The notes beneath the pieces were generated by a model, which ran no database searches, was not told the DNA's origin, and saw only the letters and a list, made by a program, of their open reading frames with translations. The position numbers and the translations under genes are program-made. 64,000 nt of DNA from Thermoflexibacter ruber (GTDB taxonomy: Bacteria > Bacteroidota > Bacteroidia > Cytophagales > Thermoflexibacteraceae). Every line of letters starts with the position of its first letter. The stretch's first letter is position 1. The stretch lies in NCBI RefSeq assembly GCF_900113045.1, contig NZ_FONY01000012.1:62001-126000 (forward strand). The letters run 5' to 3'. Of this stretch, positions 61,057 to 63,445 are shown piece after piece.

Positions 61057-61851
61057 ATGTCCAATTTAGAATATAAAGATTTATTAGATGCAGGTGTACA
61101 TTTTGGGCACCTCACTCAAAAATGGAATCCTAAAATGGCGCCTTATATTTTTATGGAGCGCAATGGAATCCATATCATAGACCTCAACAAGACTTTGGTT
61201 TGTTTGGAAGCAGCAGCAGACGCTATCAAGAAGATTGTACGCTCAGGTAGAAAAATCATGTTTGTTGCTACTAAGAAGCAAGCAAAGGAAATCGTAGCTT
61301 CTGAAGCGGCTCGTCTTAAAATGCCTTTTGTAACGGAGAGATGGCTTGGTGGGATGCTTACCAATTTTACTACTATCAGAAAATCTCTAAAAAAGTTAGC
61401 AAGTATCGATAAAATGATGAAAGACGATACCTATGGCAACTTGGCAAAAAGAGAGCGTTTGATGTTAGCACGTGAAAGAGAAAAGTTGCATAAACTTCTT
61501 GGTGGTGTGGCAGAACAAACCCGCCTTCCTGCTGCCTTGTTTGTAGTAGATATTAAGCGTGAACATATTGCTGTAAAAGAAGCTCAGCGTTTAAATATTC
61601 CTGTTTTTGGGATTGTAGATACAAACTCAGACCCAGATTTGGTAGATTTCCCTATTCCCGGTAACGATGATGCTTTCAAGTCTATTGCTCTCATTACTTC
61701 CTATATAGGTAAAGCCATAGAAGACGGCTTGATGGAGAGAAAGAAAGACAGAGAAGAATCAAAACTGAAAGATGAAGAAAATCAAAAACGCGAGGTAGAA
61801 GATGAAAGCGAAGGCTTCCCAGAAATGGAAATGCAAGAGGAGGAGGCTTAG
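61057..61851 (+). CDS. rpsB: 30S ribosomal protein S2
   Basis: 264 aa: [68 protein letters not shown] and [23 protein letters not shown]. The last 35 residues are an acidic Glu-rich tail, common in Bacteroidota. In most genomes tsf follows at once; here a terminator and RNA genes follow. Confidence 0.98.
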
Positions 61852-61920: not shown

Positions 61921-61942
61921 TATTTTACTCCAAAATGATGAG

Positions 61943-62095
61943 CTGTAGGGGAAGGACTCGAACCTTCACAGAGTAGTTAGTCGCAAAAGCAGTGAGATGT
62001 TCTGTTAAGGACTCATCTCACTTCCTTTATGATTTATCCCAGCTTCTCCACCCCCGAGACAGGAGGGCATGGCTGCCAAATTTCATCACCCTACA
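61943..62095 (-). tRNA. tRNA-like RNA A with giant variable arm (anticodon GUC)
   Basis: 153 nt. Acceptor TGTAGGG pairs with CCCTACA (7 bp), discriminator G. D arm ATG/CAT with a 12-nt loop holding the conserved GG. Anticodon arm CCCTC/GGGGG with loop CTGTCTC, giving anticodon GUC and C38. T arm GAAGG/CCTTC with loop TTCGAGT. The variable region is 83 nt: base stem GGAG/CTCT and an inner 9-bp hairpin AGTGAGATG/CATCTCACT. U37 (normally a purine) and C at position 21 are odd. No CCA is encoded and no consensus promoter is seen; it may be read from upstream. It could be a real Asp-type tRNA, a non-decoding tRNA-like RNA or a decayed copy of B. Confidence 0.65.
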
Positions 62096-62135
62096 GTATA
62101 GTTGTTAGGTTTTTAGATTGTCAATGCTTTCAAAC

Positions 62136-62204
62136 AAAAAAGGTATGCACAATATGCACACCCTTTTTCAACCTTAACCAATAAACAACGCATAAAATAG
62201 ACAT
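62136..62204 (-). repeat. terminator-like repeat R1
   Basis: 69 bp, 94% identical (4 mismatches) to R2, exactly 360 bp away. On the minus strand it contains AAAAAGG ... TGCA-TATTG-TGCA ... CCTTTTTT, a hairpin ending in a T run. It directly follows the mini RNA C and would end its transcript. Confidence 0.75.
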
Positions 62205-62212
62205 TCTCTTGA

Positions 62213-62271
62213 TGTAGGAGAAGGTATCGAACCTTCAGACTTTTTATTGTTAGTCTTCCTCTTTTCCCTAC
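62213..62271 (-). ncRNA. 59-nt mini tRNA-like RNA C lacking a D arm
   Basis: GTAGGG/TCCTAC acceptor (6 bp, one G-U), a 9-nt linker AAAAGAGGA where the D arm should be, one hairpin AGACT-(10-nt loop AACAATAAAA)-AGTCT in the anticodon-arm position, then a T arm GAAGG/CCTTC with canonical loop TTCGATA and discriminator A. T stem and acceptor match those of RNAs A and B. It has its own promoter (62293-62324) and is followed at once by R1. It is unlikely to decode, because the hairpin loop is 10 nt. Confidence 0.55.
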
Positions 62272-62292
62272 TTGTCTGTTTTATTGTTAGTA

Positions 62293-62324
62293 CAAAGTTA
62301 AAAAGGGTTGTTTAATTTTGCAAA
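62293..62324 (-). promoter_or_regulatory. promoter of mini tRNA-like RNA C
   Basis: Minus strand: TTTG (62324-62321), a 20-bp spacer, TAACTTTG (62300-62293), an exact consensus. Start of transcription is expected near 62286, about 15 nt before the folded RNA. Confidence 0.6.
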
Positions 62325-62495
62325 TTTTTCAAATAAAATTTTAAAAAATTTTATTTTTATCAAAAAAAAGAGTGTTTAATTATTAAAAATCAAAAAAAGC
62401 ATTTTCTAAAAATAGAATTAAGCTAAGAAAACATGCAAAAAAATGAATAGCTAAAACTTACAAGTAATTGTTTATCAAAACATTAAAACATAACT

Positions 62496-62564
62496 AAAAA
62501 AGGTATGCTCAATATGCACACCCTTTTTCAACTTTAACCAATAAACAACACATAAAATAGATAT
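62496..62564 (-). repeat. terminator-like repeat R2
   Basis: Second copy of R1 (4 of 69 bases differ), same orientation. It lies downstream of tRNA-like RNA B on the minus strand and could end its transcript. Bases 62325-62495 and 62565-62662 are very AT-rich and show no gene. Confidence 0.75.
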
Positions 62565-62662
62565 ATTTTTTGCAAATTTTTTGGCTTTTTTTTAAAAAGT
62601 TTGCATAAATTTCACTGTGCGTATATAATTTAGCAATGTGTGAAAAAAGCTTGCATTTTTTG

Positions 62663-62829
62663 CTGTAGGGGAAGGACTCGAACCTTCACGGAGTAGTTAG
62701 CCCTTCAAAAGGTGAGTTAGCACTATCTATGCAATAGTAAACCATTAGCTCACTCTTTGAGTTAGGTTTATCCTAAACTCTCCACCCCCGAGACAGGAGG
62801 GCATGGCTGCCAAATTTCATCACCCTACA
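62663..62829 (-). tRNA. tRNA-like RNA B with giant variable arm (anticodon GUC)
   Basis: 167 nt. The first 51 nt are identical to RNA A, as is the 3' end (CTAACTACTC to the acceptor) apart from one base. Same acceptor, D arm, anticodon loop CTGTCTC, T arm and discriminator G. The variable region is 97 nt: base stem GGAG/CTCC (A has CTCT, a G-C to G-U change that keeps pairing), a hairpin GAGTTTAGG/CCTAACTC around ATAAA, and an outer GTGAG/CTCAC stem enclosing ACTAT/ATAGT. It has its own consensus promoter. The conserved ends and changing middle point to a selected structure. Confidence 0.68.
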
Positions 62830-62849
62830 TTGTAATGTATTTGACGATA

Positions 62850-62881
62850 CAAAATTAAAAAAACGAATTGTTTTTTGCAAA
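62850..62881 (-). promoter_or_regulatory. promoter of tRNA-like RNA B
   Basis: Minus strand: TTTG (62881-62878), a 20-bp spacer, TAATTTTG (62857-62850), an exact consensus match. Start of transcription is expected near 62843, about 14 nt before the mature 5' end, which RNase P would trim. Confidence 0.62.
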
Positions 62882-62965
62882 CATTCTAAATATTTTTTTA
62901 AAAATTTCGTATTTTTCTAATAAGTTGTGCTTTTTGTTAAAAAATTCATAAAATACTATTTTAAA

Positions 62966-63445
62966 ATGGACAAAAATTTAGAAATCGATAACACAGATAT
63001 TCAAATTTTGGCGGAGCTAATGAAAGATGCCAAAACTCCTTACACGGAAATTGCAGAGAAAATTAATGTATCTGGAGGTACAGTTCATGTTAGGATGAAG
63101 AAGTTAGAAAAGATGGGAGTAGTCAGGGGGGCTTCGCTGGACATAGATTTTCATAAGTTAGGATATGACATTACTGCTTTTTTAGGTATTTATCTACAAA
63201 AGAGTTCTTTGTACGAGCCTGTTTCAGAAGAACTCTCTAAAATACCAGAGATTCTTAGTCTGCATTATACTACGGGTGCTTACAGTATTTTTGCCAGGAT
63301 TATTTGTAAAAACACTAGCCATCTTTTAGATGTATTGCATAATAAGATTCAGAGAGTTAATGGAATAGAGCGAACAGAAACCTTTATTACTTTGGAAGAG
63401 AAACTAAACAGACCTCTGCAATTAGACATGAATTTGTTTAGGTAA
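62966..63445 (+). CDS. Lrp/AsnC family transcriptional regulator
   Basis: 159 aa from the Met at 62966 (MDKNLEIDNTDIQILAEL); the upstream alternative start adds 13 residues not typical of the family. N-terminal winged helix-turn-helix (about 1-60, with PYTEIAEKINVSGGTVHVRMKKLEKMGV) and a C-terminal RAM/ligand-binding domain (about 70-155). It binds DNA as an octamer or dimer and usually senses an amino acid. It is divergent from the tRNA-like RNA B promoter and could regulate it, by position only. Confidence 0.92.
   Translation: MDKNLEIDNTDIQILAELMKDAKTPYTEIAEKINVSGGTVHVRMKKLEKMGVVRGASLDIDFHKLGYDITAFLGIYLQKSSLYEPVSEELSKIPEILSLHYTTGAYSIFARIICKNTSHLLDVLHNKIQRVNGIERTETFITLEEKLNRPLQLDMNLFR

Follow-up and report, generated by a model that had tools for sequence, protein, structure and literature searches.

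What do two tRNA-like genes with giant variable arms do in Thermoflexibacter ruber, whose genome also holds an ordinary tRNA-Asp(GUC), five tRNA-Leu and three tRNA-Ser? The genes, called here RNA A and RNA B, lie in a 64,000-nucleotide stretch of DNA (the window: contig NZ_FONY01000012.1, positions 62,001 to 126,000 of the forward strand). We propose, with a probability of roughly 0.7, that they belong to an RNA family which is tRNA-Leu-like in its body and, rather than decoding, acts as a cofactor dedicated to asparagine synthesis. Seen directly are the RNA fold, the identity bases, the linkage to AsnC, the co-occurrence with GatCAB, the exclusion of asparagine synthetases and their appearance in the position of the RNA; the proposal builds on these. 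An earlier description of the window from its letters only, the sequence-only reading, had wondered whether the genes belong with reported bacterial tRNAs that carry very large variable arms. The tRNA-like gene with a giant arm stands; as to what it does, the evidence here leans to a role in asparagine synthesis.

Both genes are on the minus strand, which the sequence-only reading had not stated; its coordinates were correct. RNA A spans 61942..62096 and is matched by the family covariance model at 141.8 bits (L031:781-935); alignment A1, pair counts and segmentation delimit it further. Its base -1 lies at 62096, U1 at 62095, the loop CUGUCUC at 62062-62056, the variable arm at 62049-61970, G73 at 61943 and C74 at 61942. 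RNA B, the second copy, spans 62662..62830 (142.4 bits, L031:1501-1669; segmentation), and the same landmarks fall at 62830, 62829, 62796-62790, 62783-62690, 62663 and 62662, respectively. In both RNAs the acceptor stem (UGUAGGG/CCCUACA) has 7 bp, the D stem, with GG, has 3 bp, and an anticodon stem of 5 bp closes the 7-nt loop CUGUCUC; the T stem, with UUCGAGU, has 5 bp. The base stem of the variable arm is GGAG/CUCU in RNA A and GGAG/CUCC in RNA B. Counted from base stem to base stem the arms measure 80 and 94 nt; the 83 and 97 nt given earlier are the same arms plus flanking nucleotides. ARAGORN detects neither RNA in the window, and Rfam yields zero matches there at gathering thresholds, the matches of a relaxed scan staying far under the gathering scores. 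To our knowledge, the variable arms of this family are the largest known.

The giant-armed cloverleaf is not peculiar to the window. A BLASTN search with RNA A found relatives in 42 of the 59 Cytophagales genomes that form our order sample, often in tandem and with up to 10 matching pieces per genome. In 41 aligned homologues every stem is supported: 98.6% of cells are paired, versus 91.5% in shuffled alignments and 49-60% when the partners are slid, and 13 pairs are altered on both sides. The base stem of the variable arm, for instance, occurs as GGAG/CUCC, GAGG/CCUC, GAAG/CUUC and GGGG/CCCC. The fold that had been read from two copies is thus borne out by covariation, and the covariance-model search proposed at that stage recovered numerous homologues that pair in the same regions. 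RNAalifold adds a further covarying helix above a bulge in the variable arm, closing the internal loop GAUAAA / CUAA. This loop (alignment A1 columns 61-66 with 179-182) is strongly conserved; it presumably resembles a UAA/GAN-type tertiary motif and suggests docking.

With the covariance model, family members score at least 70.8 bits and tRNA-Leu-like sequences at most 58 bits. At this cut the family is present in 69 of the 395 Bacteroidia genomes of our class sample, in about 20 families; the raw tally of 303 genomes takes in ordinary tRNAs and was discarded. At least 241 distinct copies were gathered, the longest under 200 nt, with variable arms of 35-120 nt. Chitinophaga, Hymenobacter, Pontibacter, Dyadobacter, Spirosoma, Cyclobacterium, Algoriphagus, Pedobacter and Saprospiraceae are among the carriers in the motif-scan matches listed. 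Cloverleaf, 7/5 branch and G18G19 are all present, and almost every member has a T loop reading UUCGANY. The Bacteroidota -7 element TAnnTTTG stands upstream of 90 of 242 copies, versus a shuffled mean of 5.5. A literature search, with most subscription journals outside its scope, found no description of this tRNA-like RNA.

Which amino acid would such an RNA carry? We drew loop statistics only from the 96 copies that BLAST or the covariance model had found; motif-scan copies were left out, because the scan fixed some loop bases and its matches are listed in part. Both searches were seeded with the window copies, which brings some bias towards similar members. Among the 96, G73 is found in all, U35 and C36 in 95 each, C38 in 93 and G34 in 84, and U1-A72, G2-C71 and C74 are invariant (96/96 each); the loop consensus across the family is YNDUCBC. 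G73, G34, U35, C36 and C38 are the strong aspartate determinants and G2-C71 a further one, according to a review (PMC9976931). Judged by these bases, the family is a predicted substrate of AspRS.

A second set of bases concerns amidation. U1-A72 permits GatCAB to amidate Asp-tRNA, and G1-C72 and U20a block it (PMC9976931; PMC4206432 for the rule). After GG the D loop reads CAG in 91 of the 96 copies and U20a is absent from the RNA; with its U1-A72 pair the family is predicted to be a GatCAB substrate too. Since the bases for aspartate charging and U1-A72 occur in one RNA, the marks for charging would here be joined to the mark for amidation. In T. ruber itself, tRNA-Asp has G1-C72 and U20a, and tRNA-Asn has U1-A72. 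G1-C72 is strictly conserved in bacterial tRNA-Asp (PMC9976931), and its replacement by U1-A72 in 96/96 copies rules out a canonical tRNA-Asp. The RNA shares with tRNA-Asp the five strong identity bases, G2-C71 and most of the loop (CUGUCUC versus CUGUCAC); it differs in U1-A72, the lack of U20a, pyrimidine 37, an unfixed U33, a tRNA-Leu-like D arm and a variable arm of 35-120 nt.

The anticodon loop also appears unfit for decoding. U33 is present in 70 of the 96 copies and missing in 26, and 90 have a pyrimidine at position 37; by the criterion of U33 and purine 37 this points away from translation. The RNA is not the sole decoder of any codon, because normal Asp, Leu and Ser tRNAs are encoded in the genome.

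The immediate neighbour of RNA B is an asnC-type regulator gene (62966..63445, plus strand), divergent from it across a gap of about 136 bp. Its product scores 154 bits with the NCBIfam AsnC model, under the strict cut-off of 227 yet far above its Lrp score (48 bits), and its best PDB match is AsnC 2CG4 (E 4e-33). The control region shared by asnC and RNA B (62831..62965) holds TAATTTTG, a TAnnTTTG -7 match upstream of RNA B. Protein clustering places a divergent regulator of the Lrp/AsnC family at 108 of 177 loci, with a median gap of 155 bp; the runner-up neighbour occurs at 27. In the class sample an AsnC orthologue is encoded by 67 of 69 RNA-positive versus 22 of 326 RNA-negative genomes, and in 45 of the 69 asnC is divergent from and adjacent to the RNA, 77-277 bp apart. 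We sought a shared AsnC-binding palindrome and found no convincing dyad. In E. coli, AsnC activates the divergently transcribed asnA and is damped by asparagine (PMC8707732). The arrangement seen here resembles this asnC-asnA divergon in having an AsnC-type regulator divergent from a putative asparagine-making gene, and departs from it in that an RNA gene takes the place of asnA.

In some genomes without the RNA, an asparagine synthetase gene occupies its position. Within the 22 genomes that have AsnC and lack the RNA, asnB lies opposite asnC in G413, G308, G332, G424 and G155, and an archaeal-type asnA (closest to 1NNH and 3P8T) does so in G274, G387 and G228. E. coli-type AsnB (NF006949) was found in none of the 69 RNA-positive versus 50 of the 326 RNA-negative genomes, and archaeal-type AsnA likewise in none of the 69. 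One bacterial family (f61) contains both states: 11 genomes have the RNA and GatB and lack AsnB, and 3 have AsnB and lack the RNA and GatB. In G184, which encodes AsnB elsewhere, a very diverged RNA remains beside asnC (L247:2269-2383, 30 bits), its anticodon arm apparently lost.

GatB, in contrast to these synthetases, goes together with the RNA, being present in 69 of 69 RNA-positive versus 227 of 326 RNA-negative genomes of the class sample. In the order sample the single RNA-positive draft without GatB is G004, which is 89% complete. There the AsnRS cut-off is exceeded in 57 of 59 genomes and the GlnRS cut-off in 23; 20 of these 23 have GatB and are all RNA-positive, and the 3 without GatB are all RNA-negative. 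In GlnRS-positive Cytophagales GatCAB has no obvious job in translation. According to a survey, some bacteria, Bacteroidetes included, lack an asparagine synthetase and keep GatCAB in addition to AsnRS and GlnRS; it proposed tRNA-Asn as the site of asparagine synthesis (PMC4206432).

The cycle that we infer would begin with a transcript trimmed and CCA-finished as for a tRNA. AspRS would load aspartate, reading G73, G2-C71, G34-U35-C36 and C38; GatCAB would recognise U1-A72 and amidate the aspartate to asparagine, which may then be released or handed on outside translation. Misreading of Asp codons as Asn would be prevented by the loss of U33, by the giant arm and by a pyrimidine as residue 37, and the divergent AsnC probably tunes the RNA supply to the amount of asparagine, as its E. 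coli counterpart does with asnA. The whole of this is somewhat less secure than the assignment to asparagine synthesis, and we still find it likely: a free-standing, non-decoding RNA would be a metabolic cofactor in place of an asparagine synthetase gene, on which AspRS and GatCAB build asparagine under an asparagine-sensing regulator, with an arm that bars translation or scaffolds the enzymes.

Several points weigh against this proposal. The weakest step of the cycle is how asparagine would leave the RNA. G1-C72 helps E. coli AspRS to position the acceptor end (PMC9976931), and AspRS would need to tolerate U1-A72. Twelve of the 96 copies have A34 or U34, and in 24 of the 69 RNA-positive genomes the RNA is unlinked to asnC. 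In the order sample, longer AsnB-superfamily genes of the TIGR01536 type exceed their cut-off in most genomes that have the RNA, and their products might make asparagine; with these proteins persisting, the idea that RNA-positive genomes are free of every asparagine synthetase was rejected. The exclusion covers E. coli-type AsnB and archaeal-type AsnA, bacterial AsnA (TIGR00669) being outside the search. Fisher P values for the associations (3e-10 for GatB, 7e-5 for AsnB, 1e-53 for AsnC) ignore shared ancestry and are descriptive only. Finally, tRNA-Asn of T. ruber has U1-A72, and with a non-discriminating AspRS it could be a target of GatCAB. Both carriers could operate, since tRNA-Asn and the RNA family have that pair in common.

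The persistence of AsnB-like genes would suit another fate for the amino acid. The RNA might be charged with aspartate and amidated as proposed, through the same identity elements and with the same non-decoding loop, after which a dedicated transferase would transfer the asparagine to an acceptor (lipid, peptide or cell wall), AsnC only matching supply to the asparagine level; the giant arm could dock such a transferase. We regard this as unlikely, given that no transferase gene recurs beside the RNA: clustering of the 177 loci returned no recurrent partner apart from asnC, which is the commonest by far. Exclusion of asparagine synthetases, and replacement of the RNA by them at its locus, moreover point to asparagine supply. 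The same replacement by enzyme genes suggests a catalytic role, and it makes improbable a regulatory RNA that mimics tRNA to bind AspRS, GatCAB or AsnC without being turned over, for example to sense asparagine status. Linkage to asnC, tRNA mimicry, a sequence-variable arm and tandem multi-copy arrays are all compatible with such a mimic, but it would need neither invariant G73 and C74 nor determinants of charging and amidation together.

Recognition by SerRS is less probable still. G73 and a long variable arm are features reported for SerRS recognition (PMC7609411), but this idea leaves the fixed U35, C36 and C38, and the links to asparagine genes, without explanation. Least credible of all is a functional decoding tRNA for Asp codons, despite the Asp anticodon GUC in most copies: an ordinary tRNA-Asp(GUC) is encoded in the genome, U33 and purine 37 are lacking as counted above, copies with AUC or UUC exist, and the variable arm reaches 120 nt. 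Other identities were also rejected. A tmRNA is ruled out by the length of the longest copy (<200 nt) and by the lack of any ARAGORN or Rfam tmRNA match, and tRNA-Sec or an allo-tRNA by the 7/5 branch, rather than 8/5, 9/3 or 8/4, and by the loop YNDUCBC, with no UCA. A phage or plasmid origin was dropped, as distant BLAST gave no match.

Compared with known systems, an RNA carrier for asparagine synthesis would come closest to tRNA-dependent synthesis on tRNA-Asn, as in Deinococcus, Thermus and Bdellovibrio (PMC4206432). That route shares aspartate on an RNA, amidation by GatCAB and U1-A72; it uses a non-discriminating AspRS and occurs also in bacteria with AsnRS and GlnRS. The RNA family would be an alternative carrier to the tRNA-Asn proposed there, and what sets it apart is that it is a distinct RNA which seems not to decode, carries the Asp identity bases and a giant arm, and is linked to AsnC. 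A long variable arm is likewise found in tRNA-Sec, selC* tRNA-Cys and allo-tRNAs (PMC7609411). Their acceptor/T helices are altered (13 bp; 8/5, 9/3 or 8/4), whereas in the present family the branch is 7/5, UCA is missing and the arm is far longer.

If the proposal is true, an RNA gene stands in for the gene of a biosynthetic enzyme, and evolution exchanges the one for the other under one regulator. It would offer an answer to the puzzle of why some bacteria, Bacteroidetes included, retain GatCAB despite AsnRS and GlnRS (PMC4206432). It would also add a tRNA-like class missed by ARAGORN and Rfam, and a possible chassis for tRNA engineering. A tRNA given to a non-translational task has a precedent in staphylococci, where a non-translational tRNA-Gly serves cell-wall cross-bridges; amino acid and pathway are different there, and the variable loop is normal.

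Many long variable arms in the family carry an apical motif near GGGUUGACCACYAA (L008, L010, L013, L021, L022, L023, L024, L028, L037, L051 and L057), and L216, L217 and L218 have an extra hairpin-like insertion within the D loop. One form of 78 nt (L211:438-515, G023) has no long variable arm and retains U1-A72 and G73-C74, with the loop CUAUCUC. One member, L069 (MWSW01000010.1), occurs in a metagenome-assembled genome labelled Ignavibacteriales, which indicates either transfer beyond Bacteroidia or a misbinned contig.

In the window, a degenerate third copy lies between RNA A and RNA B (62214..62271, minus strand; repeat D2, 69%). Sequence and fold show an acceptor stem and T arm only, and its 3' end is ACA-U, not ACA-G-C. 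Mini copies reduced to an acceptor stem, a short linker and a T arm occur in other genomes also, as at L103:344-415 and L167:5760-5818, with ends ACA-U or ACA-A. A repeated 3' trailer with a terminator-like hairpin (direct repeat D3, 94%) is found on the minus strand downstream of the mini copy (62136..62204) and of RNA B (62496..62564). The trailer TGTTGTTTATTGGTTAAGGTT, followed by a hairpin and a T run, is kept 3' of copies in L005, L007, L012, L017 and L029, from the same bacterial family. The convergent neighbour of RNA A, rpsB (61057..61851, plus strand; TIGR01011, 312 bits), is outside the system.

We also considered a guide RNA, with arms matching genomic targets. The arm of RNA B has no other match in the genome. 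The arm of RNA A recurs once, where an unrelated gene carries a partial copy of the RNA at its 3' end; the idea was rejected. This 59-nt copy of the arm (88%; G000:C38:36836-36894, in L232 at about 537-595 and in L236) is located at the end of that gene, the product of which terminates in ...LGKKKSEMSP, and looks like an RNA fragment copied into the genome.
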